Below are positions 23,615-53,321 of a stretch of 64,000 nt of DNA, in pieces. The stretch's first letter is position 1. Each line of letters begins with the position of its first letter. Origin of the DNA: Parapedobacter pyrenivorans (lineage in GTDB: Bacteria > Bacteroidota > Bacteroidia > Sphingobacteriales > Sphingobacteriaceae); NCBI RefSeq assembly GCF_014636865.1, contig NZ_BMER01000001.1, forward strand, positions 422,718 through 486,717, written 5' to 3'. The position numbers and the translations under genes are program-made. Below the pieces are notes generated by a model, which worked only from the letters and a program-made list of their open reading frames with translations, made no database searches and had not been told where the DNA came from.

Positions 23615-24862
23615 CTAATGTATCGACTGTTGGGCTGCACCAGTTTGAGCAGTCTTTTCAGTTACCTTTTTTTGCCAAAAGAAGAATATGGTAAATAGCA
23701 CAATCAGAATAACGGGAAACGATAGCATGTTGACCAATGCATCTTGACCGGTTGCAAGCTCCAAAGCGGAACCTGTAAGTCCTTCAGCCGCATTTTCGGC
23801 TCTTGCCGTGTCAATCCAGCCGCCAATAAACGGCTGAAAAATTGCTGAGGAAAACATACCCGCACCACCGATGATGGACATACCCAACGCACCGCTCTTA
23901 GGCACCCGCTGCGCAGCCGCCCCTACCATTACCGGCCAGAAATAACATATGCCGATAGCGAAAATAACGGTAGCCACATAGGCGAGCGGCCCAGTGACCG
24001 TACTGAACATGTAGATACCGATAGCCGTTAAAATAGCGCCACCTAGAAGTACGCCGGTCTGTCCGAATGCTTTAACCACGGGTTCGGCAAAAAACCTTCC
24101 AACAGCCATCAACCCACTTGTCAGTGCCAGAATCAACATCGGCTCAGCGCCGCTGCTAGCCATGATTACGCTCACCCATTGATTGGGGCCGAATTCCGAT
24201 ATTGCCGTCAGGAACATACAGACAAACAAGAAGATAAACGTGGGTGTAACCATCGCCTTAAGGTTCTGTGCCAATGACGTGGCAGCCTCCACAAGCGGTT
24301 TTGGAAACGTCTTGCCGTAAAACAGTATGGCGTATATAATGGTCGGAACCATAGTAACCCACATCTGGACTTGCCAGGTGAAATCGATAGCCGTCATGGC
24401 TTGCGATAGTAAGGAGCCCAACAGGATGCCTCCGGGAAACCACATGTGGAACCTATTCAGCATCTTATCCATCTTCACACCCGAATACATGTCTGCAATC
24501 ATCGGATTACAGGCGGCCTCGGTACAGCCGTTACCGAAACCAATAAACAAGGTGGAAATCAACAATGTTGAATAACCGCCGGCATAGATGGTCATGATAA
24601 TACCAATAGTGTGCGCTAAAAAGGCAACGCGCATGATGTTTTGGGCACCGAAAGAATGGTAGATTAACCCGCCGATAATCATGGAAATCGGGAATCCAAA
24701 GAAGAACATGGAGTTAATAACCCCCAGTTGGGTTGCAGTCAAGCTGAATTCTTCGCCAAGTTGGGGAAGAATTCCCGCCCGGATTGAAAAGGTAAAAGCA
24801 GTTGTAATCAGGGCGAAACAAGATCCGTTGAATAAAGCACCCCTGTTAACGTTTTCGTTCAT
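23615..24862 (-). CDS. MFS sugar permease
   Basis: A 415-residue integral inner-membrane protein with about twelve hydrophobic segments and typical major-facilitator loops: SMFFFGFPISMIIGG after the second helix, GFGNGCTEAACNPMIADMY, and WFPGGILLGSLL. The central cytoplasmic loop is short (FYGKTFPKP...). It precedes the PUL1 susC gene by 353 bp in the same orientation and probably takes the sugar, or a keto/anhydro derivative, from periplasm to cytoplasm by proton symport. Specificity cannot be read, although GNGCTEAACNPMIAD-type segments are common in Bacteroidota sugar permeases. A 10-bp palindrome lies just upstream of the start. Confidence 0.88.
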   Translation of the reverse strand: MNENVNRGALFNGSCFALITTAFTFSIRAGILPQLGEEFSLTATQLGVINSMFFFGFPISMIIGGLIYHSFGAQNIMRVAFLAHTIGIIMTIYAGGYSTLLISTLFIGFGNGCTEAACNPMIADMYSGVKMDKMLNRFHMWFPGGILLGSLLSQAMTAIDFTWQVQMWVTMVPTIIYAILFYGKTFPKPLVEAATSLAQNLKAMVTPTFIFLFVCMFLTAISEFGPNQWVSVIMASSGAEPMLILALTSGLMAVGRFFAEPVVKAFGQTGVLLGGAILTAIGIYMFSTVTGPLAYVATVIFAIGICYFWPVMVGAAAQRVPKSGALGMSIIGGAGMFSSAIFQPFIGGWIDTARAENAAEGLTGSALELATGQDALVNMLSFPVILIVLFTIFFFWQKKVTEKTAQTGAAQQSIH

Positions 24863-25508: not shown

Positions 25509-28500
25509 ATGAAACAAACAAAAAAGGGAAGTGATGCTAATCGCACAGCTACGCTTCTTGTGGCAGTCGCAATCGCCGTGTGCCTACTTCAATGCACCGG
25601 CTCCAACTCGGCTGCGTTGAAACTCAAGAAAGGGGCACACATCATTTCAATCGGCAACAACCTCGGATCGCGGATGATGGATTTCGGTTACTTTGAAACG
25701 GAAATGCAACTCCGGTATCCGGATAGCCTGTTGTATATCCGCAACATGAGTGATGGCGGCAATACACCCGGATTCCGGCCCCATTCGGGCCGTAATTCAC
25801 CTTGGGCATTTCCGGGCGCTGAGCAGTTCCAGACGGAACTGACAAATGATCCGAATTTAGTGGGTCATTTTGAAACGCCTGACCAGTGGCTCACCCGCCA
25901 CAAGGCAGACATCATCGTTGCTTTTTTTGGCGCAGTGGAATCTTTCGATGGCGAAGCGGGGCTTCAACGCTATAAAAACGAACTCGATGCGTTTGTCAAG
26001 TACACCTTGCAGCAACAATACAACGGAGTGTCGGCTCCCCAACTTGCGCTCGTGTCACCTATCGCATTCGAGGATCTGTCGGATAAATACGACCTTCCTG
26101 ATGGTAAAACGGAAAACGAACACCTCTCGATGTACACCGAGGCCATGAAAGCTGTGGCAGATAGCAATCATGTGCTTTTCGTGGATATGTATACACCGTT
26201 TAAGAAGCTCTTTGATAAAGGTGACCGGCAATGGACCATCGACGGCCTGCAACTCAATGAAGAGGGGTACAAGAAGTTTTCCGTGCTCTTGGCAAACGCT
26301 GTCTTTGGCAACGAAAAAGTAAAAAGCAATGCCCATCGGGAATCCGTCCATGCCGCAGTAATGGAGAAAAACTGGATGTGGCATAAAGATTTTAAAATGC
26401 CCAACGGTGTTCAAGCATATGGTCGGCGGTACGATCCGTTTGGGCCGGACAACTATCCCGCTGAAATTGCCAAAATCAGGGAAATGACAGCGATCCGCGA
26501 TGAAGCAATCTGGAAAGCGGTCAAAGGAGAACGGTTTGATCTGGACAGCGCCGACGCGCTGACCACCAAACTTCCCGAAGTAAAAACAAACTACGTACCG
26601 AGCAACAATGGCGTTCCGAGGTACCTCTATGGTGAAGAGGCACTTGGTAAATTCAAGCTGGCACCCGGCTACAAAATCGAACTTTTTGCCTCCGAGGAAG
26701 AGTTTCCCGAACTTGAAAAGCCGATGCAAATGTCTTTTGATAATCAGGGGCGCCTTTGGGTAGCGATTATGCCTACCTATCCGCACTGGAAGCCGGGGGA
26801 CCCCAAGCCCAACGACAAGATCCTCATTTTTGAAGATACCAACAACGACGGCAAGGCCGACAAGCAAACGGTTTTTGCGGACAGTCTGCATCTGCCCGTA
26901 GGATTTGAGATCGCCCCGGAAGGTGTCTATGTTTCGCAGGGGACCGACTTTGTCCGGCTCAACGATACGGACGGGGACGGGAAAGCCGACAAAAAAGAAA
27001 TTCTGCTGAGTGGGTTCGACGACCACGACACCCACCACGCGCACCACGCCTATACCGTGGATCCCTCGGGTGCCATCTATATGGGGACGGGTGTATTCCT
27101 CGCCAGTGATATCGAAACTCCTTATGGTACCGTGCGTACCACCAACGGAGGCTTTTTCCGTTACGATCCCAACCGGCACAAACTGGAATTCGCCCAGCTT
27201 TCCGTTCCAAATCCATGGGGTATTGCCTTTGACGATTGGGGGCAGAATTTTTATGCCGAGACTTCGGGCCCCGCCGTAAGCTGGATGATGCCGGGTACCG
27301 TCAAACCGATCTATGGTATATTCACGCCCAAATCGAGGAACCTGGTGGAGGAAGCCCATCAGGTGCGCCCGACTTCGGGACTAGAATTCATTTCAAGTCG
27401 TCATTTTCCGGATGAGGTGCAGGGCGATTACCTGATCAACAACACGATCGGCTTTCTGGGCACGAAAGAGCACACGTTGGAAGACGACGGAACGGGATAT
27501 AAAAGTCGTCACAGACAAGATCTGCTACGCTCCGAGGACCCCAATTTCCGCCCGGTTGATCTCGAATTTGCACCCGACGGTTCGCTGTATATCATTGACT
27601 GGCATAATGTATTGATCGGACACATGCAACACAACCAACGAGATCCCCTGCGTGACCATACGCATGGACGTATTTATCGCGTTACCTACCCTTCGCGCCC
27701 ATTGGTCAAGCCCGCTTTAATCGCCGACGCACCTATCGATACCTTACTGGACAATCTGAAGTTGCCTGAATACCGATCCCGCTATCGTACGCGCCGCGAA
27801 CTCCGTGGACGTGATTCGTCCGAGGTATTGGCGCACCTTAGAACCTGGGTCAAGAACCTCGATAAAAATGATCCCCGTTACGAACATCATCTGCTGGAAG
27901 GGTTATGGGTAAGTTGGGGGCTTAATCGAGTGGATCAGTCGTTGCTTCGCCAACTACTGCATGCTGACGACTATCGGGTCCGCGCGGCAGCTGTACGTGT
28001 GTTACGTTACACAGGCCATCAGGTTGCCGATCAAGCCCAATTACTGAAGGAAGCTGCAAGTGACGAACATGGGCGAGTCCGTTTGGAAGCGCTGGTAGCG
28101 GCATCCTGGCTGGATAAAGAACCGGGGTTGGCCATTCTGGATGAGGCAGCGAAGAAACCACTCGATGATTGGATGACGGATGCCTATGGAGTCGCATTCG
28201 CTCGGTTGAATGGAGAAGTCCATGGGCCAACCAAAAAAGAGGAGACAGCGGCGACCGATTTAAAAGGAAAGGATCTGGAATCGTATAAAAAAGGCCATCT
28301 GCTCTACGCGCAAGACGGATTCTGCGAGACGTGCCATCAATCGGACGGGAAGGGGCTTCCCAGTTCGGGCTTCCCGCCGCTGGCCGGCAGCCCTTGGCTG
28401 GATAACGACGACCGCCTGATCAAACTGACCTTGAAAGGTATGCTGGGGCCCATGGAATTACTGGGCCACCAATATACCGGACAAGTGCCCATGACGCCAT

Positions 28501-28682
28501 TTGGAGGCCTGATGAACGATGAGGAAGTAGCTGCGGTGCTTACGTATGTGAAAAACTCCTTTGGCAATAAAGGCACTCCTGTAGACCCCGAAAAGGTGAA
28601 AGCCATACGCGCTGCGATTGCCGACAAGAAAGGCTTTTACCATCCCGAAGAACTGCTCAAAGCGCATCCGCTCTCGAAATGA
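25509..28682 (+). CDS. SGNH-like / beta-propeller / HEAT / cytochrome c fusion lipoprotein (PVC-type heme protein)
   Basis: A 1057-residue exported protein, probably a lipoprotein (Cys29 in CLLQC). Domains in order: SGNH-hydrolase-like (about 40-275) with block I HIISIGNNLGSRM, AFFGAVESFDGEAG and WTIDGLQLNEEGY; seven-bladed propeller (about 370-720) with FASEEEFPELEKPMQMSFD, LWVAIMPTYPHWKPGD, Ca-type DTNNDGKADK and NDTDGDGKADK repeats, and FAPDGSLYIIDWHN; HEAT-like repeats (about 780-900); and a C-terminal class I cytochrome c with FCETCHQSDGKG (CxxCH near residue 939) and a later distal Met (VPMTPFGGLM). The SGNH catalytic Ser and His are not at their usual places (GNN, and Gln for the final His). 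It probably oxidises or binds a sugar in the periplasm and passes electrons on. Confidence 0.85.
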   Translation: MKQTKKGSDANRTATLLVAVAIAVCLLQCTGSNSAALKLKKGAHIISIGNNLGSRMMDFGYFETEMQLRYPDSLLYIRNMSDGGNTPGFRPHSGRNSPWAFPGAEQFQTELTNDPNLVGHFETPDQWLTRHKADIIVAFFGAVESFDGEAGLQRYKNELDAFVKYTLQQQYNGVSAPQLALVSPIAFEDLSDKYDLPDGKTENEHLSMYTEAMKAVADSNHVLFVDMYTPFKKLFDKGDRQWTIDGLQLNEEGYKKFSVLLANAVFGNEKVKSNAHRESVHAAVMEKNWMWHKDFKMPNGVQAYGRRYDPFGPDNYPAEIAKIREMTAIRDEAIWKAVKGERFDLDSADALTTKLPEVKTNYVPSNNGVPRYLYGEEALGKFKLAPGYKIELFASEEEFPELEKPMQMSFDNQGRLWVAIMPTYPHWKPGDPKPNDKILIFEDTNNDGKADKQTVFADSLHLPVGFEIAPEGVYVSQGTDFVRLNDTDGDGKADKKEILLSGFDDHDTHHAHHAYTVDPSGAIYMGTGVFLASDIETPYGTVRTTNGGFFRYDPNRHKLEFAQLSVPNPWGIAFDDWGQNFYAETSGPAVSWMMPGTVKPIYGIFTPKSRNLVEEAHQVRPTSGLEFISSRHFPDEVQGDYLINNTIGFLGTKEHTLEDDGTGYKSRHRQDLLRSEDPNFRPVDLEFAPDGSLYIIDWHNVLIGHMQHNQRDPLRDHTHGRIYRVTYPSRPLVKPALIADAPIDTLLDNLKLPEYRSRYRTRRELRGRDSSEVLAHLRTWVKNLDKNDPRYEHHLLEGLWVSWGLNRVDQSLLRQLLHADDYRVRAAAVRVLRYTGHQVADQAQLLKEAASDEHGRVRLEALVAASWLDKEPGLAILDEAAKKPLDDWMTDAYGVAFARLNGEVHGPTKKEETAATDLKGKDLESYKKGHLLYAQDGFCETCHQSDGKGLPSSGFPPLAGSPWLDNDDRLIKLTLKGMLGPMELLGHQYTGQVPMTPFGGLMNDEEVAAVLTYVKNSFGNKGTPVDPEKVKAIRAAIADKKGFYHPEELLKAHPLSK

Positions 28683-28703
28683 CGAATTGGAAAATAGCGC
28701 AAT

Positions 28704-28739
28704 AAAAAAAGGGGCAACGATTACGTTGCCCCTTTTTTT
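28704..28739. terminator. Bidirectional intrinsic terminator
   Basis: A perfect 9-bp stem, GGGGCAACG (28711-28719) and CGTTGCCCC (28724-28732), with loop ATTA, is flanked by seven A on the left and seven T on the right, so it works in both directions. It ends the rightward cytochrome-propeller gene (stop at 28682) and the leftward PUL2 operon (last stop at 28750). It is the only classical terminator I see in the window. Confidence 0.95.
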
Positions 28740-28749
28740 ATCGGAAATA

Positions 28750-29601
28750 CTATGCACCAAAGTGCGACCTCAAAAACGAGATTCCCTGAACGGCTATGGC
28801 CTCGCGGGAAGGCTCGAAGTTCCGCCAGATGGACGCTGCTTTGGCGATTACTTTAACTGCTGGTGTAAACGATTCGATGACCAGGCTACCTGTGTAATCA
28901 ACTTCTTTCAATGCATCTCGAATGCCCACCCAATCGATGTGGTCGTTTCCGGGCGCTCCCCGGTCGCAACCACACGCATGCACATGCAACAGGTGTTTCC
29001 CTGCCTTTCGGATTGCTGCCGCCGAATCTTTCTCCTCAATATTCATGTGATACGTATCCAACAGGAGGCCCACCGCCGGATGATCCACAGCGTTTGCCAG
29101 TTTCAGCGCTTGCTCACAGGTATTGATAAAATCGGTTTCGTACCGATTTAAGGGCTCAATTGCCAATTTCTTCCCCAAGTCACCAGCACGGGATGCCAAT
29201 GTTTTCAAATGCTTCACGACAATATCCCACTGCGCCTTATAATCGTCTTCCGTCGTTTGCTCCGCCCGACCCACGGTAGAATAAAGTGGCCCCACCATTA
29301 CCGGGCAGTCCAATACGCTCATCACATCCAGCACCTGAGTGATGTAGTCGATGGAATTCTGCTGTTCTTCTTTGGTACCACGCAGATCCCGACCGGGGCC
29401 CATCGCGGCGCAGATGGAAGAGCAGCGCAGACCGTTGTCGTCCAATGCCCGCTTGATCAGATGAGGATCTATATGGGAAGCATCCTCGAGCGCGATTTCG
29501 ATCGCATCGCTGCCCCAGTCCTTAAATTGCCGGATAATATCGATGCTTTCATTCGTAAAGGGCGAGGTCAGTAAAAAAGTATTGACGCCAATTGGTAACA
29601 T
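28750..29601 (-). CDS. D-tagatose/D-psicose 3-epimerase-like enzyme
   Basis: A 283-residue cytoplasmic TIM-barrel enzyme with the full metal-ligand set of ketose 3-epimerases: Glu149 (LAIEPLNRYETDFINT), Asp182 (LLLDTYHMNIEE), His208 (LLHVHACGCDRGAPG) and Glu243 (LVIESF). GAPGNDHIDW is also typical of this family. It would epimerise a ketose, or a related keto sugar, at C3 using Mn or Co. It is the last gene of PUL2, 24 bp after the ThuA-domain gene and just before the shared terminator. With the AraA-like isomerase at the operon head it could form an isomerase-epimerase pair for an uncommon sugar; the substrate is not known. Confidence 0.88.
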   Translation of the reverse strand: MLPIGVNTFLLTSPFTNESIDIIRQFKDWGSDAIEIALEDASHIDPHLIKRALDDNGLRCSSICAAMGPGRDLRGTKEEQQNSIDYITQVLDVMSVLDCPVMVGPLYSTVGRAEQTTEDDYKAQWDIVVKHLKTLASRAGDLGKKLAIEPLNRYETDFINTCEQALKLANAVDHPAVGLLLDTYHMNIEEKDSAAAIRKAGKHLLHVHACGCDRGAPGNDHIDWVGIRDALKEVDYTGSLVIESFTPAVKVIAKAASIWRNFEPSREAIAVQGISFLRSHFGA

Positions 29602-29625
29602 GTTGTCTTGATTAGATGAAATAAT

Positions 29626-30654
29626 TTATTTGTAGTCTGCGGGTGACTTGCCTTTTTTGAAACTGTCAAAGCCAAACATCGTCGGTTGATAGGAAGAAAC
29701 GAATGCCACATCTGCTTTTTCCGGGATTGGTTGATCAACTGCCCAAAAACAAGCATTGACGAGTAATCTTCGCAAATCTTCATTTAACAGATCGATCGAC
29801 GCCCCCATGGTTGTCGTGAACGCTTTCCCTTCTTTCCCGCCTTCGATCGTGTAGTTCCTCGTCCAAGCAACGGGCAATGCCGCTTTATCTTTGTTGATGG
29901 GTGCATCCGCTGTCATTCCGCTGGTAGACTGTCCGTAAACCAACACATCAGCATCTTCCAACGGCCCGACGGTATAAACATCCGTGGGCACCCAGATATC
30001 GGCGACACCATTCAGTATCGGATTGGCCGCGGCGGCCTCATTATTTAAGCCCCGTGTACCCTCTTTGCCATGGTCGCCATGATGGCTTACCCAAGTTTCT
30101 CCCAAAACGATCTTGCCAAATCCCTGTTCCCAACCTGGTGCGGTACTTTGGAAATCATATTTTGCATACGGATCACCGGGGTTCTTTGCATAATGAAATG
30201 CATGCGTGGACGTGCGCAAGCCGACTACCGGCTTCCCTGCTTTGAGATATGCGTCAATATACCGCATTTGATCCGGAGGCAATTCACGGAAACGGGTAAA
30301 AATCACCATCAGATCGGCGGACTCCAAACTAGCGAGTCCGGGAATATTGGACTGCTCATTTGCATCGATTTCTCCGGTTAACGAATCCACCGAAAACAAC
30401 ACGGTGCATGTAAAGCCAAATCGCTTAGCCAATAACTGAGCTAACATAGGCAACGCTTCTTCCGATCGATATTCTTCGTCCCCGCTGATCAAAACGATCC
30501 TTTTACCCTTTCCAGGACCGTCGTCGCCCTGGTAAGTAACCCATTGTTCTGCATCGGGTTGCGGCTCCTGCGTAGCGGTGCTGTTTGAACAACCGGCTAA
30601 ACCACCCATCGTGATTAGCAAAATGAGTGATACTATTTTCCTTACTGTGTTCAT
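29626..30654 (-). CDS. ThuA-domain lipoprotein
   Basis: I start at the ATG at 30654 (MNTVRKIVSLILLITMGGLAGC), which gives a normal lipoprotein signal with lipobox LAGC; the frame is open 40 codons further upstream, but that part is not signal-like. The mature protein (about 320 residues) has a ThuA/GATase-like fold: KRIVLISGDEEYRSEEALPM, LASLESADLMVIFTRFRELP, and GKPVVGLRTSTHAFHYA, where ThuA proteins have a conserved His region. ThuA was named from trehalose utilisation in rhizobia, where it works with the dehydrogenase ThuB in 3-keto-sugar breakdown. Here it is periplasmic or on the outer membrane, between the DUF4432 gene (85 bp) and the epimerase. Confidence 0.85.
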   Translation of the reverse strand: MNTVRKIVSLILLITMGGLAGCSNSTATQEPQPDAEQWVTYQGDDGPGKGKRIVLISGDEEYRSEEALPMLAQLLAKRFGFTCTVLFSVDSLTGEIDANEQSNIPGLASLESADLMVIFTRFRELPPDQMRYIDAYLKAGKPVVGLRTSTHAFHYAKNPGDPYAKYDFQSTAPGWEQGFGKIVLGETWVSHHGDHGKEGTRGLNNEAAAANPILNGVADIWVPTDVYTVGPLEDADVLVYGQSTSGMTADAPINKDKAALPVAWTRNYTIEGGKEGKAFTTTMGASIDLLNEDLRRLLVNACFWAVDQPIPEKADVAFVSSYQPTMFGFDSFKKGKSPADYK

Positions 30655-30739
30655 GAATATAATTGATAATGGGGTTATTACAATGGTTCTAAGATAACGA
30701 ATTACGTACTGAAACACCGTATCTGAATCAACATTTACA

Positions 30740-31801
30740 CTAGTTGCTTGTTGTGCGTTGTAAAAAACCGGCAATATCAGCCGCTTGGTCCACGATTCGG
30801 ACCGTTACCTCATATTCCCTACGTTCGCGTGGTTCCAGCAAAATAAGCGAACCGTTCTCCCGGGCTTTTGCCTGGCCAATGGGCGGATGGGTGCCCGGCT
30901 CCAACCCCACCACACACTCTCCCGGCCCCCAATGCTGCCAGTTGGTCAGCCAGGGCAACTGGGCTTTTTTGAATTCGATGGACAATGCGATACCGATATG
31001 TGGATTATGGATTCCACAACAGCATATTCCGTCATCATCCGCTTCCACATCAATAAAAGCCGCTTCCTCGCCACTTCCCATGTGATCTTTCAATGGCGGG
31101 CTCCCCTTTCGGAAAGGTTGCCCAGCTTGAAAAATCTTCGCCTTACCGGCACCTTCGCGTGACTCCCAAGGGCCGCGCCAGCAGATATCCACACCTTCAT
31201 CAACCAATGGCCAGCCCAAGTTCATGTGATAAAGCAGCATGTGTGGCGCGGGCGTATTGCCGTGGTTAATAACCTCATCATGGATATAGATAGCGGGATC
31301 ACCCAGTCTACCGGAGATGGTGCGCCGTAGCACGAGCTGCATACCCAATGGCCGGGATTGCTTAACAATACCCGTGATACTCATGTCTAACTGCCCCGCA
31401 GCCGGATCGGGCTGGATAATGGATTCGATGGTAGCGGGCAAGCCACTAAATTGACTGTGAAGCCCCCGCTCCCCAAATTCGTCCGATTCCGGTCCGCCCA
31501 CATGATCCAACCCACAGGTGGTGAGCAAGCCGCCACCGAATGCGTTGAGCCACTCGATACCCCGATATCCACTGGGATTGGGTGCCACCACCCCTACATG
31601 GCTCAACCAAACCAAGCTATGGGAATTATAGCACGCATCGGCGATATCCAAACCCCGGTCAATGACAACTTTGTACCGCAGGCCGGTTCCTGTATTGATC
31701 CAAGCAATACGTGTTCCCCTGCCAGGTCCATTATCTAAAATCGCGGTTTCTATCCCACCCACCTGCAGGTGGTTCGATATCTTATCGCTCCATCCAGCCA
31801 T
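30740..31801 (-). CDS. DUF4432-family aldose 1-epimerase-like protein
   Basis: The ATG at 31801 begins MAGWSDKISNHLQVGGIET and lies 4 bp after the upstream stop; a longer frame from 31843 overlaps the upstream gene. The 353-residue protein resembles galactose-mutarotase-like DUF4432: RYKVVIDRGLDIADACYNSHSL, FGGGLLTTCGLDHVGGP, GLHSQFSGLPA, YHMNLGWPLVDEG with a likely active-site His, and LEPGTHPP near the C-terminus carrying the probable catalytic Glu. No signal peptide is visible. It probably interconverts anomers of a sugar made by PUL2, the job RhaM does in PUL1. Confidence 0.83.
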   Translation of the reverse strand: MAGWSDKISNHLQVGGIETAILDNGPGRGTRIAWINTGTGLRYKVVIDRGLDIADACYNSHSLVWLSHVGVVAPNPSGYRGIEWLNAFGGGLLTTCGLDHVGGPESDEFGERGLHSQFSGLPATIESIIQPDPAAGQLDMSITGIVKQSRPLGMQLVLRRTISGRLGDPAIYIHDEVINHGNTPAPHMLLYHMNLGWPLVDEGVDICWRGPWESREGAGKAKIFQAGQPFRKGSPPLKDHMGSGEEAAFIDVEADDDGICCCGIHNPHIGIALSIEFKKAQLPWLTNWQHWGPGECVVGLEPGTHPPIGQAKARENGSLILLEPRERREYEVTVRIVDQAADIAGFLQRTTSN

Positions 31802-31805
31802 TTTT

Positions 31806-34490
31806 TTACTTATCTTGATAAACGGGATTATTTTCGTTTCCACCAGCCATCAGGTAGGCTATCAAATCTTTCAACTCTTCTTCATTAAGCACGTTCAATG
31901 ATCCTGGAGGCATGGTAGAAACTTTTGCTACCCGTATTTCAGTCACATCGCTTTTGGGTATCTCTTTCAATACCTGTGGCGCATATGGATTCTGCGACAC
32001 CGAATACACATCCCCTTCTTCGCTGATTAACCGACCCAATACTGATGATCCGTCTTTCAATACCAATACTTTAGACTCGTACTGATCAGAAATGACTTTG
32101 TTGGGTTCAATAATGGCTTCCAGCATATCATGAACAGAAAAACGTGTTCCCAACTGCGTAAGATCCGGGCCGATTGCACCTCCCTCTCCGCCCATCATGT
32201 GACAGGAGGCACAACGCACGGCTGCAAACAGAGACTTACCCTGTTCATAATTTCTTTTGCCTTTATCTCCTTCTACCGCTTTCTGCGCCTCGTCTACTTT
32301 CCAGGCTTTTCCAGGCCCTTTGGGTGGCACAATGTTTTCAAGCAAATCCTTGCCGGACGCTGCGAGAAGCGAATCTCCGGATATGGTGTTGTAATGGTCA
32401 AATTGATCTTCCGGCACGTTTTTCAATGCCAATTTACGGGCTGCATCAATGAAACCGATGTAGCTATTGCCGCCTTTGTAGCCAAAAGCATCATAAAACC
32501 ATTTAAAATAATGCTCGTATGATTCAGGGGTCCATCCCGTATCGGCCTTACTGAGTGCCGTGGCCAGGTAAATCTGCTGCATAGGCGGCGTCTTGGCCAA
32601 CATACCGGCGATGTCCATCCCGTATTGCGGATTCCGTAATATTAAATCAGAAGAGCTTGTTAAGGTTGCCATCATCGTTGTGGAATCGTCTTTAGCACTA
32701 TCCAGCAATGAAAGCGTTCTTTCCACCGCATAAGGAGCTCCAATCTGGATCAAAAGTTTGCTGAATTCCCGATTAAGCGCATTATCGGTCGTTGGATAAG
32801 CATCCGAAAAATAAGCGGCCATGCGGTTGGTTAGATCAGGTTCAGGATTGCCCATTCGATACAGTATGACCTCAAATGCCCGTAGCAAACCTAGTTTGTT
32901 GTCTTTGGATATCCGATTGATATCAATAGTCATCAACTTACGCAGCATGATTGACTGCAATTGGGGGTAACCTGACCTCGCCATTGCAGTCATTGCGTTT
33001 GTTACTGTCCGGATATTCCGCTCACGGAACACCCGTTTGCCCCATAGCTTGATTGGCTGGTGTCTCAACGCAATGGTCGCTGCGTAGCGGATGTGCCGAT
33101 CGTCGTGATTCAGATAAGGCCAAACTTCAGCAACGATATTCGTATCGGGGCCCTTTTCAAAATAGCCTTCAATCCGTCTGCGTAATACGATTTCCTCGGT
33201 GAGGTCATTTTCCCGTTGCGGTTTCTCTTTTACCTTGTCTTGATCTTTATAAGACACTCGATACAAATCGGACTCCAGTCTCCGCCCTCCAGTAAGGAAA
33301 TAGAGTGCACCGTCCGGACCGATTTCACCATCGGTAAGCGGCAGTGGGGTACCGGAAAGGAACTCTTCTGCCTTCGCCCGATACGTCGCTCCATCCGCTT
33401 CCAATTGCACGGCATATACAATACCAAAACTCCAATCAAAAGCCAGCAGGCTATTGCGGTATTTGTCGGGAAACCTAGCGTTGCCAGTATATACTAAATT
33501 CGTAGGAGATCCCTGTCCGATATTGAGTAAAGACGGCAGCTCGTCTGGATAATAAGTAGGCCATTTGCTATTGCCTGTCCGCCAACCAAAATCCGCTCCT
33601 TTTGCTACGTGCAAGAGCCGCGTTGGCCGGTACCAAGGCATTCCGAAGTCCCATTCCATATCTGAATCATAGGCAAATAATTCTCCATCGTCATTAAATG
33701 CGATGTCAAATGTATTCCGCAACCCTGCCGCTACCAGTTGCCAATGCTGCCCCAATGAATCGGTATGGGCGATCCATCCTCCGGGTGCCATACGGTCGTT
33801 GGCGTGACCCCTCGGATCTGTAATCAATTGGAAAATATTGTCTTCATCCCAGTTAGCAGGCAACAAATAACTATCCATTTCAGGCACGTCGGTATGGTTA
33901 CCTAACACGAGGTAGATCGACTGTCCATCCGGAGCCAGGATGATACTGTGCGGTCCGTGTTCACCTTCCCCGTCAAAAGACTTCAACAGCTTAATCTCAT
34001 CAAACTGATCGTCGTTGTCTGTATCCTTTAGCCGGTAAAGGCCACTGCTCTTTTCAAACTTTTCATCTCCCCGATGATTCACCATCACATACAGACTGTT
34101 GAATGCCCAAAGCAGTCCCTGCGCATAACCCATCCCTACTTTGGTCTGCGTGGTGTCGTCCTTCCATTCATCCCCCGGAATTGTCAGGCGCTCGGGCTCG
34201 GCTGTCAGCGTATCCGCTCCGATTTCCGGAACATTGATCCGGTATAAGGAACCATATTGATCTGACGTGATCATCCGTCCCTTGTCATCAAACGTCATCG
34301 CCACCCACGACCCTTTCTTATTTTCGGAGGGGCTGTAGAGGTGCTCCACCACAAAGTCCGGAGCGACATTGATTTTCTCGACCTTAGGTTTTAGTTCTAC
34401 CTGTTCAGTATCCTGCTTCTCTTGGGTCTGGCAAGCCGAGACCAGCATCAGCACGGCAAGGGTAAATGCCAAACAGGGATTCTTTTTCAT
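31806..34490 (-). CDS. Beta-propeller / HEAT / cytochrome c lipoprotein (PVC-type heme protein)
   Basis: I place the start at MKKNPCLAFTLAVLMLVSAC (34490), a clear lipoprotein signal; upstream in-frame ATGs give no signal peptide. The domains are a PQQ-sugar-dehydrogenase-like propeller (about 35-440) with WVAMTFDDKGRMITSDQYG, GPHSIILAPDGQSIYLVLGNH, AAGLRNTFDIAFNDDGELF and GEIGPDGALYFLTGGR; helical repeats (about 460-700); and a C-terminal heme domain with AAVRCASCHMMGGEGG (CxxCH near residue 760), then GPDLTQLGTRF, typical of PVC-type heme proteins. It resembles the gene at 25509 but lacks the SGNH part. In PUL2 it lies between GH78 and DUF4432 and may be a periplasmic sugar dehydrogenase. 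Confidence 0.85.
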   Translation of the reverse strand: MKKNPCLAFTLAVLMLVSACQTQEKQDTEQVELKPKVEKINVAPDFVVEHLYSPSENKKGSWVAMTFDDKGRMITSDQYGSLYRINVPEIGADTLTAEPERLTIPGDEWKDDTTQTKVGMGYAQGLLWAFNSLYVMVNHRGDEKFEKSSGLYRLKDTDNDDQFDEIKLLKSFDGEGEHGPHSIILAPDGQSIYLVLGNHTDVPEMDSYLLPANWDEDNIFQLITDPRGHANDRMAPGGWIAHTDSLGQHWQLVAAGLRNTFDIAFNDDGELFAYDSDMEWDFGMPWYRPTRLLHVAKGADFGWRTGNSKWPTYYPDELPSLLNIGQGSPTNLVYTGNARFPDKYRNSLLAFDWSFGIVYAVQLEADGATYRAKAEEFLSGTPLPLTDGEIGPDGALYFLTGGRRLESDLYRVSYKDQDKVKEKPQRENDLTEEIVLRRRIEGYFEKGPDTNIVAEVWPYLNHDDRHIRYAATIALRHQPIKLWGKRVFRERNIRTVTNAMTAMARSGYPQLQSIMLRKLMTIDINRISKDNKLGLLRAFEVILYRMGNPEPDLTNRMAAYFSDAYPTTDNALNREFSKLLIQIGAPYAVERTLSLLDSAKDDSTTMMATLTSSSDLILRNPQYGMDIAGMLAKTPPMQQIYLATALSKADTGWTPESYEHYFKWFYDAFGYKGGNSYIGFIDAARKLALKNVPEDQFDHYNTISGDSLLAASGKDLLENIVPPKGPGKAWKVDEAQKAVEGDKGKRNYEQGKSLFAAVRCASCHMMGGEGGAIGPDLTQLGTRFSVHDMLEAIIEPNKVISDQYESKVLVLKDGSSVLGRLISEEGDVYSVSQNPYAPQVLKEIPKSDVTEIRVAKVSTMPPGSLNVLNEEELKDLIAYLMAGGNENNPVYQDK

Positions 34491-34617
34491 GAGTTTTTGC
34501 ATATGTGGTAATACGGTAATTAATGAAGAAGTCAAGTGGTTTATAATCCGCATGCAAGATAGCGTAAATAATAAAACCAAGTGTCCTGCACTTACCTGAA
34601 TGCTCAAACGGGGCAAT

Positions 34618-37380
34618 TCAATCCATAGGCACGTTGAATGTATACGCTCCCGACCCTACTTTCAACATTGTATAGCCACTATCCTGTCCTACAACCTCGA
34701 CATCCTGATGTTGCTTCACGTCTACGCCGCTTTCCCGTATCTGGCCATTCTCGTAGCGAGGCAAGTAAACTACTGCTGTGGTATTGGGCGGTATTTCCAC
34801 TCGGACCCCCAGCACATTTTCCGCTTTTTCCCAAGCCACACCAATCGGCCCATAAGGCGATTGGTAATTGCCGCTGGCGGACTCCATACCTGCAATGATG
34901 GCCGGCTTTATTGTTATCGATTTGAACGCGATACTCCCTGTCGCTGATCGTATACCCAATAATCCGCTATAAAACCACTCCATCAAATGGCCCAACATCA
35001 TGTGATTATTTGAGACGTATTTCAGTGCTGCCCATGATTCGGTGAGGGCTGTGGCACCATTTCGGATCTGGTAACCATATCCAGGCACATCATCACGGTT
35101 GTTCATTTCGTAAATCAGTTGGGAGGCCCCCGCAGTTTCCAAGGCACGCAACAGGTAGCGATACCCCACGTCGCCGGCCGTAAGTGCCCGGTCATTGCCG
35201 ATGATGCTATCAACAAGATTACCTTCTACCCGTTTCCGCACGCTGTCATCGACCATATCCATATACAGCGGCATGGCGAACGATGTCTGGCTACCTGTGG
35301 AATAAACCGCCCTCTTCGCGTCAAAATAAGTGCCATTGAACGCCTGTCTGATGCGATCGGCAAGCGCACCGTATTGCTTGCTATCGCCTTCATGCCCAAG
35401 CAACGACGCCACCTGCGCCAGCAGTTTAGCGTCATAGAAGTAAATGGCGGAGGCAGTGAGGCCGATCGGTGTGAGCTGAGACACCCCCGGATCGTCTGGC
35501 CCCAGGTCAAACCAGTCACCCAGTCCATGATCGAGCAGGTCGTTTTCCGACTTGCGCTGCAGGTACGCCATATACCGGGTCATCATTGGGTAAGTCCGTT
35601 CCAATACGGACCGATCGCCATACCATTGATACAGGTACCATGGAATGATGATGGCTGCGCTTCCCCACTCCGGCGAATCCCTGAACCCTCCCTCAAAAGG
35701 CACATATTCAGGCACGATATCCGGCACCAATCCGTTCGCCAACTGGCCGGCTATCATATCGTCTACGATTTTATGATAGAGGTTATATATGTCGAAATTA
35801 TACCTCATGGAGGCGCCGATCAAATATGTCTGTTCAAGCCACCCCAGCTTTTCACGGTGTGGACAATCGGTAGCCACACTGGCTAAATTGCTTTTTATGC
35901 CCCATCGGATCAACTCGTTTATCTGATTGAAAAGCAGATTGGAACAAGTAAATGAACCCACGTCGGGCGCGCTGTTGCGGGTATGAAGCATGGTCAGCTG
36001 GATATTGCTTTCCTCCATCGGCAAGGCACTTTCAACGGTCACCAACGCATACCTGAAGCCATAGTAGGTAAACGAAGGTTGCCAACATTCGCTTTCCTCG
36101 CCGCGCAACACATATTCGAAATAATAAGGAGCGCCTGATGCTTTTTGGTAAGGTAGTCCGCCATTATCCAACACTTCCGCCGGAAAAATCCTGATTTTAT
36201 CCCCCTTGCTCCCACTTACCTCCAGTCTGACAATACCGGAAGCATTCTGACCGAAGTCGATAAGCAGGGAGTCTTTTCCAATGCGCGTAGTGTGTTGAGC
36301 TTCGAACGCTTCCATGACCTTCAGTGGATAATCCGTTTGCGGCGACATTTCGCCCTGTGGCCCGTCTACCAGGATCACGTTCTTCCAATGGGAAGCATCA
36401 AAGCCTGTATTGTGCCAGCCTACCTGTTCTAACCCAGCGTCATAGTCCTCACCACCGTAAATACTGCTGAACGTCACAGGCGATGGATCCGTATGCCAAG
36501 TGCTGTCGGTGCTTATCGTTTCGACGGATCCGTCCTCATATCGGATAAGCAGTTTCGCGCGCAGCATCGGATAAGCCTCCGCCCTGACGAGTTTCCGATA
36601 TCGTTCGCGGTTTATATAGCGGAATCCCGTACCCACAATAGCGCCAATTACATTTTCACCCCGTTGCAGCTTATCTTTTACTGCATAGGTATTGTACAGG
36701 CAACGTTTTTCATAAGCCGTCCACCCGGGGGCCAGGAAATCATCGCTTGCCCCTTCGCCATTGAGGTAAGCTTCATAGTGCCCTAACCCCGAGATAAACA
36801 GATAAGCCTCTTCAATCGATTTGGAAATCGTAAAGGATTTACGGAAAAGCGGGATGATTGCACGCTTCACGGCCTTCTCGCCCAGGTGGTCGCCTCCGCC
36901 ATGCACACCAGGCAGCACCCTAAGCGCATCGGGCAACGCTTCATAAGCAATCCAGTTGCTGTCTTCCCATTCGGCGGTATGGATGATACCGGTTACGAAA
37001 GAAGCGGTGGCACTCCAAGCGGACATGTTGCCCGATTGATCCCAAACACGTACTTTCCAAAAATACCGCTGACCGGAAGACAGCGGGGCGCCCCGGTAAT
37101 CGATGAAATGCTGTTCATCGGACCATACTTTACCGGGGTTCCATATCAACGCCGCTTCCTTTTCCAATCCTTCTTCAGTTGCTGCAAGTTTTATTTGCCA
37201 GGCACGCTGCATTGTACCACGTCGGGAAGACTGCACCACCCACTCAAAATGGAGCTGTTCCATGGTAATACCCAACGGCTCAGCCCGTTTGTCGACACGC
37301 AAATCCACCGGCACCGGGCTTGCGAGCCCATTGCCCATTGTCAGCACTAATAAACACAGGAAGGAAAACCGTATACCCAT
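34618..37380 (-). CDS. GH78-family alpha-L-rhamnosidase (PUL2)
   Basis: A 920-residue secreted enzyme with a signal peptide ending near GNGLAS. It has the multidomain layout of long GH78 enzymes: an N-terminal Ig-like domain (VDLRVDKRAEPLGI, ISSGQRYFWKVRVWD-like), a carbohydrate-binding beta domain (FRKSFTISKSIEEAYLFISGLG, YEAYLNGEG), then LLIDFGQNASGIVRLEVSG, and the catalytic (alpha/alpha)6 barrel with SVATDCPHREKLGWLEQTYL near residues 505-520 and DHGLGDWFDLGPDDPG. The C-terminal strand domain contains ITIKPAI and SPYGPIGVAWEK. It would release terminal alpha-L-rhamnose from an oligosaccharide in the periplasm. It follows SusD by 16 bp. Confidence 0.92.
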   Translation of the reverse strand: MGIRFSFLCLLVLTMGNGLASPVPVDLRVDKRAEPLGITMEQLHFEWVVQSSRRGTMQRAWQIKLAATEEGLEKEAALIWNPGKVWSDEQHFIDYRGAPLSSGQRYFWKVRVWDQSGNMSAWSATASFVTGIIHTAEWEDSNWIAYEALPDALRVLPGVHGGGDHLGEKAVKRAIIPLFRKSFTISKSIEEAYLFISGLGHYEAYLNGEGASDDFLAPGWTAYEKRCLYNTYAVKDKLQRGENVIGAIVGTGFRYINRERYRKLVRAEAYPMLRAKLLIRYEDGSVETISTDSTWHTDPSPVTFSSIYGGEDYDAGLEQVGWHNTGFDASHWKNVILVDGPQGEMSPQTDYPLKVMEAFEAQHTTRIGKDSLLIDFGQNASGIVRLEVSGSKGDKIRIFPAEVLDNGGLPYQKASGAPYYFEYVLRGEESECWQPSFTYYGFRYALVTVESALPMEESNIQLTMLHTRNSAPDVGSFTCSNLLFNQINELIRWGIKSNLASVATDCPHREKLGWLEQTYLIGASMRYNFDIYNLYHKIVDDMIAGQLANGLVPDIVPEYVPFEGGFRDSPEWGSAAIIIPWYLYQWYGDRSVLERTYPMMTRYMAYLQRKSENDLLDHGLGDWFDLGPDDPGVSQLTPIGLTASAIYFYDAKLLAQVASLLGHEGDSKQYGALADRIRQAFNGTYFDAKRAVYSTGSQTSFAMPLYMDMVDDSVRKRVEGNLVDSIIGNDRALTAGDVGYRYLLRALETAGASQLIYEMNNRDDVPGYGYQIRNGATALTESWAALKYVSNNHMMLGHLMEWFYSGLLGIRSATGSIAFKSITIKPAIIAGMESASGNYQSPYGPIGVAWEKAENVLGVRVEIPPNTTAVVYLPRYENGQIRESGVDVKQHQDVEVVGQDSGYTMLKVGSGAYTFNVPMD

Positions 37381-37396: not shown

Positions 37397-38941
37397 TTAT
37401 TGATACCCTGGATTTTGCTCCAATTGGTCGTTTAACTGCATTTCCAAATATGGAATGGGGAAAATCAACCGCTCGGGAGTAACCTGGTAGGCGTTGTCTA
37501 CGATGTAGTTATATTGATTCTTGATGCGCTCCCCGTGTGCATTCATGACATCGATGGCCTGTCCGGTACGGACCAGGTCGTGCCAGCGGTGATTCTCAAA
37601 AGCGAGCTCCACGCGTCGCTCCTGTGCGATGACCGCCTTCAATTCTTCATACCCGGTTGCGTTAACCGAAGGCAAGGCAGCACCTGCACGTTTCCTAACC
37701 TGGTTGATCAACTCGGGTGCATCGGCAGATTTGCCATTTTCATTTAAGCACTCCGCCAACAACAGTAACACGTCCGAATAACGGTATACCGGCCAATTGT
37801 CGTCGGTATTGCGCTCCCTGTTGTGCGGGTTCATGTATTTTTTGATGAAGGGCTTGGCCACCTTGCCCGTTGGTACTGTGTAATCCACGCTGCTTTCCAC
37901 TGATTCGATGACAAAACTACCATCGCCGGCGATGACACCCTCTGCCATCGCAATAGAGGCGTCTTTGCGGGTGTCGCCTTCCTCATACGCTTCCATCATG
38001 TCGGTGGTGGGGACGTTCCAGCCACCATAATTGAGCGTATTGGATGTAACTCCGGTAATCAATTCCACGTTGGTGGTCTTCGGCGCAAACCAGTAAATAA
38101 ACATGCTTTGCTGCCCTTGGTCACCCATCAGGAATTGAATTTCAAACACCGATTCCCGGCTGTTTTTGTTTGCCGTGCGGAATACATCCGCATAATTCGG
38201 CAACAGTCCGTACCCCATGGCCGTCACATTCCGCAATAGGGGTTCGGCAGCCTCGAAATCCTGCAAGGTCATGTAAACCTCGGCCAACAGCACAGAGGCG
38301 GAACCTTTATTGGCCCGGCCATTTTGCGGAAATGACGGAGCAGGCAATTTGGCAACGGCCTCGCTTGCGTCGGCAATGACTACATCATATACCTCCTCGG
38401 CACTGCTACGCGGTAAAAAAGCGTCTTCTTCTTTGAGCACTTCTTTCAGAAACAACGGCACTCCGCCAAAATAACGCACGAGGTTGAAATAATAATATGC
38501 CCTTAAGAATTTTGCTTCGCCGACAATCAAATCCTTGGCTTCCTGGCTGAAATCCGCTTGTTCTATCCGATCCAATATCGTGTTGATCCGAGCGATCCCG
38601 ACATAACTGTTGTCGAAATAGCCATTTGACCATTGGTTTTGCGAGTCATCGAGGAAATCGTCGATATTTTCCCGCCTGATGATGTGGATGCCCCGATCCG
38701 GCGCATAGTAATCGTAATGCGTATTATCCGACCGCATTTCACCCATTAGGTATCCACTTTCGCCCACCAGCGCCCGTAGCGGCTGATAGGCACCATTGAG
38801 GGCCTGCTCGAATTGTTCTTCTGTTTCATAAAAATCATTCGCATTGGGTTCTGAATCGGGTGTGAGGTCGAGAAACGCCGAGTTGCACCCTTGAAATCCG
38901 ATACCGAACGCGAGGAAAATGACGATGATTAGCTTGTTCAT
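37397..38941 (-). CDS. SusD/RagB-family glycan-binding lipoprotein (PUL2)
   Basis: A 514-residue surface lipoprotein (MNKLIIVIFLAFGIGFQGC, Cys19) and partner of the SusC 11 bp upstream. Family motifs are AFLDLTPDSEPNANDFY at the mature N-terminus, FEQALNGAYQPLRALVG, LIVGEAKFLRAYYYFNLVRYFG, ASVLLAEVYMTLQDFEAA, DVLLLLAECLNENG, and the C-terminal FENHRWHDLVRTG and RLIFPIPYLEM. It is similar in layout to the PUL1 SusD but clearly different in sequence, which suggests the two loci bind different glycans. Confidence 0.96.
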   Translation of the reverse strand: MNKLIIVIFLAFGIGFQGCNSAFLDLTPDSEPNANDFYETEEQFEQALNGAYQPLRALVGESGYLMGEMRSDNTHYDYYAPDRGIHIIRRENIDDFLDDSQNQWSNGYFDNSYVGIARINTILDRIEQADFSQEAKDLIVGEAKFLRAYYYFNLVRYFGGVPLFLKEVLKEEDAFLPRSSAEEVYDVVIADASEAVAKLPAPSFPQNGRANKGSASVLLAEVYMTLQDFEAAEPLLRNVTAMGYGLLPNYADVFRTANKNSRESVFEIQFLMGDQGQQSMFIYWFAPKTTNVELITGVTSNTLNYGGWNVPTTDMMEAYEEGDTRKDASIAMAEGVIAGDGSFVIESVESSVDYTVPTGKVAKPFIKKYMNPHNRERNTDDNWPVYRYSDVLLLLAECLNENGKSADAPELINQVRKRAGAALPSVNATGYEELKAVIAQERRVELAFENHRWHDLVRTGQAIDVMNAHGERIKNQYNYIVDNAYQVTPERLIFPIPYLEMQLNDQLEQNPGYQ

Positions 38942-41900: not shown

Positions 41901-42033
41901 AGGGGCCGGCGGCATCGGCTACCGTGCCCGTAATTGTTCGCTGTTCCTGTCCGTGCAGCACGGCGGGCCAAATCAAAATAACTGACAGGTACCGTGCCAA
42001 AATGCCCCAATAAGAAATCCGTGATCGTTTCAT
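38953..42033 (-). CDS. SusC/RagA-family TonB-linked outer-membrane receptor (PUL2)
   Basis: A 1026-residue TonB-dependent transporter. After the signal peptide (ending near AVLHGQ) it has the carboxypeptidase-like domain TITGTVADAAGPLPGVTVTV, the TonB-contact segment SDLDEVVVIGYGTQQRRAIT, plug domain (LQGRIAGVQISQTTGRPGQG, IRGAASMNAGNSPLYVVDG, YGSRAANGVILVTTKSG), and a barrel ending in RTFTFGLNVNF. No STN domain is present. It lies 30 bp behind the GH106-like gene and 11 bp before susD in the long PUL2 operon; here susC is the third gene, not the first, which is less common for PULs. Confidence 0.96.
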   Translation of the reverse strand: MKRSRISYWGILARYLSVILIWPAVLHGQEQRTITGTVADAAGPLPGVTVTVKETNEATYTDDEGTFSIAAEQGETLVFSLIGYSAQEIAIDARSSFNVMMEPTTSDLDEVVVIGYGTQQRRAITGSISNVDAGVLKDVPVGQFSQKLQGRIAGVQISQTTGRPGQGMAVRIRGAASMNAGNSPLYVVDGQPITGDINNINPDEIESFSVLKDASATVLYGSRAANGVILVTTKSGKGTEGVTVSLSTYGGLQHVPQRGRPDVMNAREFAQWQKNFYEDKIRYENWVNPATGLAEIPEDYSNPEQYGEGTDWYSILLRQGAPIQNYSLSVTSNSEKYSTAVTAGYFNQQGVLLNTGYQRFSFRANNEFRPHERITLGFNIAPTLQLDHNTLTNTDGQRQVIDGAFITSPISPAINPDGSLPITTNTFGMFPNPNWYHVLQEKLDDFKRTRALGNVFGEVMIVEGLKFKTRADFDLESRTQHNFASSTSGGGLFVAPPQPATGAYNTRSYYSWLNENLLTYEKTFGDHNFDVLLGYTAQKFREENSNINKTDFPSDDIPWLNAGATVTGAGSSTAAWSLQSVIGRLNYSFKGRYLLSGAIRRDGSSRFGSDRKWGSFPSVSVGWIASEEDFLQDNEYLSFLKVRASYGLVGNNNIGNYRSIAMMGPTNYVLNSSLVQGLSITSLGNPLLGWETTDQLDVGVEIGLFNDRINLVYDYYRKVTDGMLYPVELPRASGFSSVWTNVGTFKFWGHEIGISTKNINGELIWNSDLNVTFNRNEVLKLGTNNTPIGGYGDQGDFNRTAVGYPIGQFYGYVFDGVYMTQAEFDAQPKHASSQIGTVRMKDLNGDNVITNEDRTFIGDPNPKFVFGFNNSFSYKNWDLSFLFAGSVGGKTMDATYENTENLDGVFNVRKVVMDGWRSPEDPGNGEVPRTLTGTTALFRFTNSRWVYNSTYASLRNITLGHTLKFQRPYLRDVRLYVSVQEALMLTKYPGLNPEVSISGADPLRLSVDQTAYPVPRTFTFGLNVNF

Positions 42034-49013: not shown

Positions 49014-49014
49014 A

Positions 49015-50235: not shown

Positions 50236-50236
50236 A

Positions 50237-51397: not shown

Positions 51398-51404
51398 AGA
51401 CTCA

Positions 51405-52292: not shown

Positions 52293-52298
52293 CGGAGC

Positions 52299-53279: not shown

Positions 53280-53321
53280 TACTTTTAATTATATCTCCGT
53301 TTGCTGTTGTATCCATCTCCA

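Follow-up and report, generated by a model that had tools for sequence, protein, structure and literature searches.

Why should a heme-bearing propeller protein be encoded at the end of a glycan-uptake gene run? The question is raised by a stretch of 64,000 nucleotides from Parapedobacter pyrenivorans (assembly GCF_014636865.1, contig NZ_BMER01000001.1, positions 422,718-486,717 of the forward strand), which we call the window and which contains two adjoining glycan loci, both on the minus strand, named here PUL1 and PUL2 (for polysaccharide utilization locus). PUL2 starts with an isomerase-like and a GH106-like gene, continues with SusC, SusD and GH78, and ends with four genes encoding a propeller-heme lipoprotein (PROP), a DUF4432 protein, a ThuA protein and a TIM barrel (TIM2); with likely internal starts, the gaps along this run are of 1 to 115 bp. 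A sequence-only reading of the tail had proposed that PROP oxidises a sugar and that ThuA processes the keto product, in an electron-transfer-linked version of the 3-keto route. Our analysis suggests a wider arrangement: the tail would belong to a module, conserved in Bacteroidota, for opening glycosides by the 3-keto route and coupling this opening to electron transfer. We give this reading a probability of roughly 55%.

The steps of such a module would be the following. SusCD would import an oligosaccharide or glycoside. PROP, as an envelope lipoprotein, would oxidise a ring hydroxyl, most likely that of C3, and pass the electrons on through its own heme c, after which DUF1080, acting outside the cytosol, would cleave the resulting 3-keto glycoside. 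The 3-keto sugar would be taken across the inner membrane by an importer (MFS in the window, ABC genes at some other loci) and converted to an ordinary hexose, through reduction and isomerisation, by the cytosolic Gfo/Idh, the TIM barrels, a phosphomannose-isomerase-like (PMI-like) cupin and DUF4432. The link of ThuA and TIM2 to the module would be PVC5, a second protein with a propeller and a cytochrome, whose gene lies just beyond the part covered by the sequence-only reading. Of this scheme, gene content and order, conservation, fold, heme motif and fusions are observed; the oxidase activity, its C3 position, the cofactor and substrate, the order of steps, the import and the reaction of ThuA are predictions. 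If this is true, one branch of the PVC-type heme proteins, a group well represented in this genome (19 DUF7133 matches), acquires a concrete role, the respiratory-chain-linked opening of glycosidic bonds, and ThuA, DUF4432 and a PMI-like protein that belongs to no Pfam family acquire a shared pathway. In the conserved operon the PROP branch has SusCD on one side and a 3-keto-glycoside hydrolase on the other, which makes this role testable.

The plan itself is known with another oxidase, LacABC, and the novelty would reside in a heme-propeller family as candidate oxidase. LacABC of Caulobacter crescentus is described, in the part of PMC9007349 consulted, together with DUF1080, a transporter, two epimerases and a reductase, with periplasmic cleavage by DUF1080 as a proposal; the same part mentions a putative lactose dehydrogenase in Pedobacter. 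As far as that description goes, the PROP module would resemble the LacABC cluster in its 3-oxidation in the envelope, periplasmic DUF1080 cleavage, transporter, epimerases and reductase, and the electron-transfer-linked 3-keto route of the earlier proposal is of a kind already known (PMC9007349). The difference lies in the oxidase, which the heme-c propeller would replace in the company of SusCD, DUF4432, the PMI-like cupin and sometimes ThuA. A LacA concealed at the PROP loci was considered and rejected: the genome of P. pyrenivorans carries six pairs of GMC and Gluconate_2-dh3 genes elsewhere (which we take to be the families of LacA and LacC), and none of its six GMC proteins finds a match longer than 200 amino acids at the 80 PROP loci described below. 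A 2024 paper in Nature reportedly deals with an alternative pathway of glycan breakdown.

The neighbourhood of PROP across genomes

In the window the module is split. PROP, DUF4432, ThuA and TIM2 are in PUL2, and the remainder is about 12 kb away in PUL1, which holds GH106, GH78-like, DUF1080, Gfo/Idh, a second TIM barrel (TIM1), a PMI-like cupin of 405 amino acids, SusD and SusC, with an MFS transporter-like gene just past it. Family scores and fold confirm the four co-directional minus-strand genes that had been read behind SusCD and GH78, and PROP, DUF4432 and ThuA are not chance open reading frames, because they have homologues at 46-88% identity in other genomes of the bacterial family. 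The accompanying statement that PUL2 contains no Gfo/Idh is correct for its inside but misleading, since such a gene lies in PUL1 and belongs to the same run in relatives.

A scan of GTDB genomes gave at least 588 confirmed relatives of PROP, and the best 80 were retained as PROP loci, from genera that include Chitinophaga, Dyadobacter, Spirosoma, Algoriphagus, Maribacter and Sphingobacterium. Counts at these loci are lower bounds, as some stretches end at contig ends. DUF1080 is found at 53 of the 80, always on the strand of PROP (53/53) and less than 400 bp from it in 35. The cupin and DUF4432 are each present at 52, TIM1 at 47 and Gfo/Idh at 46, and these five partners, as we call them, occur all together in 39/80. 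SusC and SusD are each present at 37 loci, SusD at less than 400 bp in 29. For comparison, DUF1080 is matched 25 times in the 5.9 Mb of the P. pyrenivorans genome, and by our estimate a same-strand DUF1080 would be met by chance within a comparable stretch in about 5% of cases.

Gene order is conserved too. In a locus of the same genus (L042), DUF1080, Gfo/Idh, MFS, TIM2, ThuA, TIM1, the 405-aa protein, DUF4432 and PROP follow one another on one strand with alignment ends 17 to 128 bp apart, so that the MFS gene is within the same run as ThuA and Gfo/Idh. The order SusC, SusD, PROP, DUF4432, 405-aa protein, TIM1, Gfo/Idh, DUF1080 recurs in seven of the eight loci L071-L078, the exception being L075, which has no SusCD match. 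In three metagenome-assembled genomes (L132, L149 and L156; an uncultured Bacteroidetes bacterium, a Chitinophagaceae bacterium and a Sediminibacterium) a one-strand run with gaps of at most 49 bp reads PROP, DUF4432, 405-aa protein, PVC5, ThuA, TIM2-like, TIM1, Gfo/Idh, DUF1080, and L125 and L150 contain PROP, DUF1080, DUF4432, the 405-aa protein, TIM1, Gfo/Idh, ThuA and PVC5. When the window proteins were compared by tblastn with ThuA loci of the same bacterial family, PROP, DUF4432, the 405-aa protein, TIM1 and Gfo/Idh again travelled together. The idea that the four tail genes form a self-standing unit in the window was rejected on these grounds, as their orthologues share runs with the wider module (L042, L071-L078, L132, L149, L156).

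Among 151 genomes of the family, PROP is present in 27, DUF4432 in 26 and the 405-aa protein and ThuA in 25 each; ThuA and PROP occur both in 24, ThuA only in one, PROP only in three and neither in 123, a co-occurrence among related species that is not to be read as an independent probability. Other genes were scanned at the PROP loci through one member each. ABC importer genes (binding protein, permease and ATPase) are found at 6/80, DUF1501 genes at 18/80 and PSCyt1-DUF1549-DUF1553 genes at 17/80, the last two always on the PROP strand (e.g. L104 6026-9832, L158, L161). The PSCyt heme proteins that occur at some PROP loci belong to a group whose functions are described as unknown in the part of a genome study consulted (PMC5615132). 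Rhamnosidases adjoin the module in the window; rhamnose as its general substrate was nevertheless rejected, with matches to the GH78 or GH106 proteins of the window (E 1e-5) at only 5/80 loci, in a search restricted to these glycosidases.

PROP as a candidate oxidase of the envelope

The C-terminal heme domain of PROP passes TIGR02603, the PVC-type heme-binding domain (99.2 bits, cut-off 68.15). The propeller is barely visible by sequence, scoring below the cut-offs of TIGR02604 (67.6 versus 122.2 bits) and DUF7133 (22.1 versus 27), and when the PROP alignment was compared with PDB sequences, the matches fell on the heme and repeat parts and not on the propeller as such. These sub-cut-off scores and the tie to SusCD and the 3-keto module separate PROP from the PVC-type heme proteins that it otherwise resembles. 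By fold the propeller is clear. An AlphaFold2 model computed with 15 orthologues (mean predicted local distance difference test, pLDDT, 73.8) predicts it at residues ~41 to 425, counted from the start at 34502, and the best 16 fold matches in the PDB are all sugar dehydrogenases of the pyrroloquinoline quinone (PQQ) family, with Z of 25.5-28.4 and root-mean-square deviations of 2.9-3.8 over 283-315 residues (AA12 28.4, 3a9g 28.2, Asd 27.3, sGDH 26.9), after which the next fold falls to Z 23.6. A profile comparison with GSDH, whose profile was built mostly from proteins of the same bacterial family, gave a probability of 96.6 (E 6.5e-10, 297 columns), and the invariant GSDH residues H110, R177 and N178, the histidine being presumably the catalytic base, align with H182, R262 and N263 of PROP, identical in all 82 sequences compared, of which 81 come from the 80 loci and one from the window. 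Heme-c residues C764, C767 and H768 are equally invariant, as is M864, a candidate axial ligand (82/82 each). AA12 enzymes also carry a cytochrome.

Several points weigh against this reading. Some concern the enzyme: HHIP, which is not known to be catalytic, shares the propeller fold with PROP at a Z of about 23, and PROP has no match to PF07995, the Pfam GSDH family, up to E 1. The nearly invariant Arg-x-Arg of GSDH (R301, R303), whose arginines we take to hold PQQ, is without counterpart in the profile alignment, where PROP has P-L-T390 and then D391 in its place (T390 in 82/82), so that PROP shares the fold, the histidine and the Arg-Asn of sGDH, Asd and AA12 and lacks this part. No PqqE over cut-off is found in the P. 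pyrenivorans genome (best 46.8 bits, cut-off 381.35), another difference from the PQQ sugar dehydrogenases; since the same genome has four PF07995 sugar dehydrogenase matches, PQQ may be scavenged from outside, or PROP may use a different cofactor. Other points concern the neighbourhood: the loci were found with PROP as query and all 80 contain it by construction, they are related, and their counts are not independent. DUF1080 is absent from the stretch in 27/80, and 18/80 loci, Dyadobacter and Emticicia loci among them, are without any of the five partners. The P. pyrenivorans genome has one PROP for its 25 DUF1080 and 19 DUF7133 matches, from which it follows that most DUF1080 proteins work without PROP. 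Finally, a second Gfo/Idh with a twin-arginine-like N-terminus is present at 4/80 loci (L095, L098, L099, L155), and as this type could oxidise sugars outside the cytosol PROP is not the sole possible envelope oxidase; PVC5, found at 21/80 loci, is likewise a candidate. The claim that PROP oxidises a sugar is in this way strengthened by the fold, the His and Arg-Asn residues, the CxxCH motif and the same-strand DUF1080, and weakened by the lack of the Arg-x-Arg. Beside PVC5 or ThuA, twin-arginine-like Gfo/Idh genes are seen at L047 (5109-6224), L098 (19042-20157) and L043 (6728-7996), L047 and L043 being among several such loci in genomes of the family; these are possibly exported sugar dehydrogenases.

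The distribution of the partners between compartments argues for an oxidase in the envelope. An N-terminal hydrophobic stretch, called by a crude rule, is present in 80/81 PROP, 44/53 DUF1080, 20/21 PVC5 and 3/5 ThuA proteins, and in 0/46 Gfo/Idh, 0/52 cupin-like, 1/52 DUF4432, 1/47 TIM1 and 0/8 TIM2-like proteins; a lipobox-like motif is seen in 26/81 PROP and 19/53 DUF1080. With such a distribution, a glycoside imported by SusCD would reach DUF1080 before the core Gfo/Idh. DUF1080 should need a 3-keto substrate and the oxidase should therefore be outside the cytosol, and from the gene content we infer that PROP is the neighbour that fits.

Oxidation at C3 has to be contrasted with oxidation at C1, as sGDH, Asd and AA12 enzymes oxidise the anomeric carbon to lactones. 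PROP could do the same on released sugars, its linkage to 3-keto genes reflecting shared sugar catabolism only. This is the alternative that survives best, though we hold it to be unlikely. The nearest folds of PROP are precisely these dehydrogenases, with the histidine and Arg-Asn aligned, and a GntP-type permease (gluconate permease family), identified via one member, is found at 6/80 PROP loci. In L158 and L161, however, TPR and gyrase genes on the other strand lie between this permease and PROP, and the close neighbour of PROP in 35/80 loci is a 3-keto-disaccharide hydrolase.

The cytosolic half of the module leads to a second alternative. TIM2 had been read as tagatose-3-epimerase-like: its candidate metal ligands E149, D182, H208 and E243, aligned to solved epimerases, are kept in 13/13 sequences selected at >=55% identity, and E, D, H, E is the set that we take to bind metal in ketose 3-epimerases, but the protein remains under the cut-off of the D-psicose 3-epimerase model NF051856 (166 versus 300 bits). 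The 405-aa cupin recurs at 75-85% identity in 21 loci from other Bacteroidota; the ten best Foldseek rows for its model are all mannose-6-phosphate isomerases, and as this model is of low confidence (mean pLDDT 62.6) we claim the fold class alone. The window Gfo/Idh has levoglucosan dehydrogenase as nearest model (346.3 bits, under the cut-off of 650), whereas its score with the disaccharide 3-dehydrogenase model is low (30.1 bits, again with a cut-off of 650). A pair of DUF1080 and C3-type Gfo/Idh is present, the C3 type resting on a nearest model below cut-off. Levoglucosan dehydrogenase oxidises C3, and the LgdA/B1/B2/C pathway, in the part of its description consulted, comprises oxidation by LgdA, reduction by a Gfo/Idh enzyme and, acting on the 3-keto sugar, a beta-eliminase and a hydratase that are both annotated as sugar phosphate isomerases (PMC7676230). 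By analogy, TIM1 and TIM2 could carry out beta-elimination and hydration.

It is conceivable that an NAD-dependent Gfo/Idh makes the 3-keto sugar, that the TIM barrels act as LgdB1 and LgdB2, and that PROP is an accessory or substrate-binding protein. The likeness of the Gfo/Idh to levoglucosan dehydrogenase and the two isomerase-like TIM barrels favour this possibility, as does the twin-arginine type of second Gfo/Idh at the four loci above. We consider it less likely still than oxidation at C1. The window Gfo/Idh and the 46 core ones are without a signal-like stretch whereas DUF1080 mostly has one, no second Gfo/Idh is seen among the window genes scanned, and a heme c with invariant ligands is not needed for mere binding. 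The levoglucosan pathway is NAD-dependent, and the part of PMC7676230 consulted does not name a heme propeller, DUF1080 or SusCD.

ThuA and its propeller partners

Whereas the five partners surround PROP, ThuA is found rather with PVC5. The ThuA of the window passes the gathering score of PF06283 but is divergent: the whole-genome family search did not pick it up, and a PDB search with ThuA alone gave no match. R187, T188, T190, H191, W228 and H231 (counted from 30774), among others, are kept across 30 aligned sequences. Rhizobial ThuAB are trehalose genes in which a ThuA domain and a Gfo/Idh share one module; the present ThuA differs from them in being a lipoprotein of the envelope and in keeping company with heme propellers. 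Among the papers listed in searches on ThuA with cytochromes, PULs or propellers, none makes this link by its title or the start of its abstract.

We surveyed 30 ThuA places in genomes of the family, the window excluded, with identity thresholds of 35% for PVC5 and of only 25% for the TIM barrel. PVC5 is near ThuA in 23 of these (22 within 5 kb), a TIM2-related barrel in 20 and PROP in seven; five further genomes (G098, G103, G108, G113, G138) have PROP on the same contig at 10.8 to 14.0 kb from ThuA. In the seven places without PVC5, a PF01011-type quinoprotein that carries a cytochrome c of its own stands directly beside ThuA in five (Pfam was run for two of these) and 7.6 kb off in one; in the seventh, where the contig is short, it was not seen. 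L059-L063, from family genomes, add a third type of propeller partner: here ThuA has nearby a PF01011 quinoprotein to which cytochrome c is fused, and also SusC. PVC5 itself passes TIGR02604 (240.4 bits) and DUF7133 (259.5). Its SGNH-like N-terminal domain reads IGNN at the GDS block, presumably the position of the catalytic motif, and may be inactive.

At the PROP loci, ThuA is present in 12/80 in all, a count that depends on the method (three by tblastn at 40% identity, five in one cluster, four in another). In four Emticicia and Dyadobacter loci (L133, L141, L158, L169), PROP, ThuA and a TIM barrel stand in a row, 3 to 146 bp apart, and the five partners are all missing; the family match of the L158 ThuA has an E of 3.8e-35. 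In this short form, ThuA follows PROP where at 35 loci DUF1080 is found, which is why we think that ThuA probably acts in the envelope on an oxidised product. The earlier suggestion that it processes the keto product is favoured by these 4/80 loci and by the fusions described below, a support that is positional only.

ThuA is repeatedly fused to propellers. In the P. pyrenivorans genome itself, two ThuA-DUF7133-HEAT proteins (L069 5141-8665, L070 7630-11043) end in a copper domain of the plastocyanin/azurin type instead of a cytochrome c, and both are followed by Gfo/Idh and a TIM barrel, with an extra ThuA gene between in L070; a third protein (L066 7954-11070) joins ThuA to GSDH, PKD and cytochrome c. 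Since one propeller family carries two unrelated electron carriers, a redox role of these propellers is supported. A sample of 99 genomes from the phylum contains 27 with a ThuA match at an E of 1e-15 or below, and 14 of the 44 matches lie in frames of at least 900 aa; nine such long frames, truncated where the locus ends, were scanned, and eight contain GSDH and one HEAT only. ThuA-GSDH fusions are thus recurrent in Bacteroidota (L217, L219, L220, L223, L225, L231, L240, L241). Against a general rule that ThuA goes with heme, 0/20 unfused ThuA loci of the sample have a CxxCH piece within ~1.5 kb, stretches too short to exclude one; L002, among these 20, has a neighbour with a heme motif further on. 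A tentative extension, with the odds against it, if not long ones, is that PROP and its relatives form a new class of sugar 3-dehydrogenases of the envelope, which would keep the catalytic histidine of the PQQ enzymes without their Arg-x-Arg, operate although the genome shows no PqqE over cut-off, and wire glycan cleavage directly to cytochrome c. ThuA, fused to propellers of this kind or to propeller-cupredoxin chains and replacing DUF1080 behind PROP, would then be a general second-step enzyme of electron-transfer sugar oxidases.

The proposal that PROP oxidises and that ThuA and the TIM barrel process the keto product without any Gfo/Idh, to which the four short-form loci and the fusions lend some weight, is the least probable of the alternatives, as the window has Gfo/Idh and DUF1080 12 kb off, the orthologues of these two stand in one run with ThuA in L042, L125, L132, L149, L150 and L156, and the four loci may hide a Gfo/Idh too distant for BLAST at 1e-5.

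Layout of the window

The features of the window are collected in Table 1. The open reading frame of PROP extends over 31806-34616, its likely start at 34502 giving an N-terminus that reads ...LVSAC. Between 28500 and 47000, neither terminator-like sites (20 versus 19.0 in shuffles) nor promoter-like sites (22 versus a shuffle mean of 24.8) are enriched; the hairpin between TIM2 and the convergent PVC5 has the longest stem among those listed.

Table 1. Position and strand of the window features, with family scores and remarks
Feature	Position	Strand	Remarks
PROP, lipoprotein: beta-propeller (sugar-dehydrogenase fold), helical middle part, C-terminal heme-c domain CASCH	31806..34502	-	
DUF4432, mutarotase-like, no signal peptide seen	30740..31801	-	family E 1.6e-86; PDB 3ty1 E 4.3e-19
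Divergent ThuA-domain lipoprotein	29626..30654	-	40.3 bits, cut-off 33.4; 30 sequences aligned
TIM2, ketose-3-epimerase-like TIM barrel	28750..29601	-	AP_endonuc_2 E 1.6e-41
PVC5: SGNH-like domain, DUF7133 propeller, HEAT, cytochrome c	25509..28682	+	
DUF1080 / 3-keto-disaccharide hydrolase, signal-like N-terminus	14180..14968	-	
Gfo/Idh without signal peptide	14993..16150	-	nearest NCBIfam model levoglucosan dehydrogenase
TIM1, second AP_endonuc_2 TIM barrel	16194..17228	-	
Phosphomannose-isomerase-like cupin (405-aa protein)	17299..18516	-	no Pfam/NCBIfam family
MFS transporter-like	23615..24862	-	
GH78 alpha-L-rhamnosidase	34618..37380	-	
SusD	37397..38941	-	
SusC	38953..42033	-	
GH106-like protein	42064..45225	-	PUL2 gene run
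Arabinose/fucose-isomerase-like protein	45227..46657	-	first gene of PUL2 run
AraC-type regulator	46775..47671	+	divergent from PUL2
Terminator-like hairpin	28700..28743	-	20 pairs

Beyond PUL2, the window also carries an ebo-type metabolite-traffic cluster (47661-54197) with 3-dehydroquinate synthase-like, TatD and phosphodiesterase genes, in which EboE (485.9 bits) and EboC (363.5 bits) are both above cut-off and the EboA domain scores 142.4 bits.

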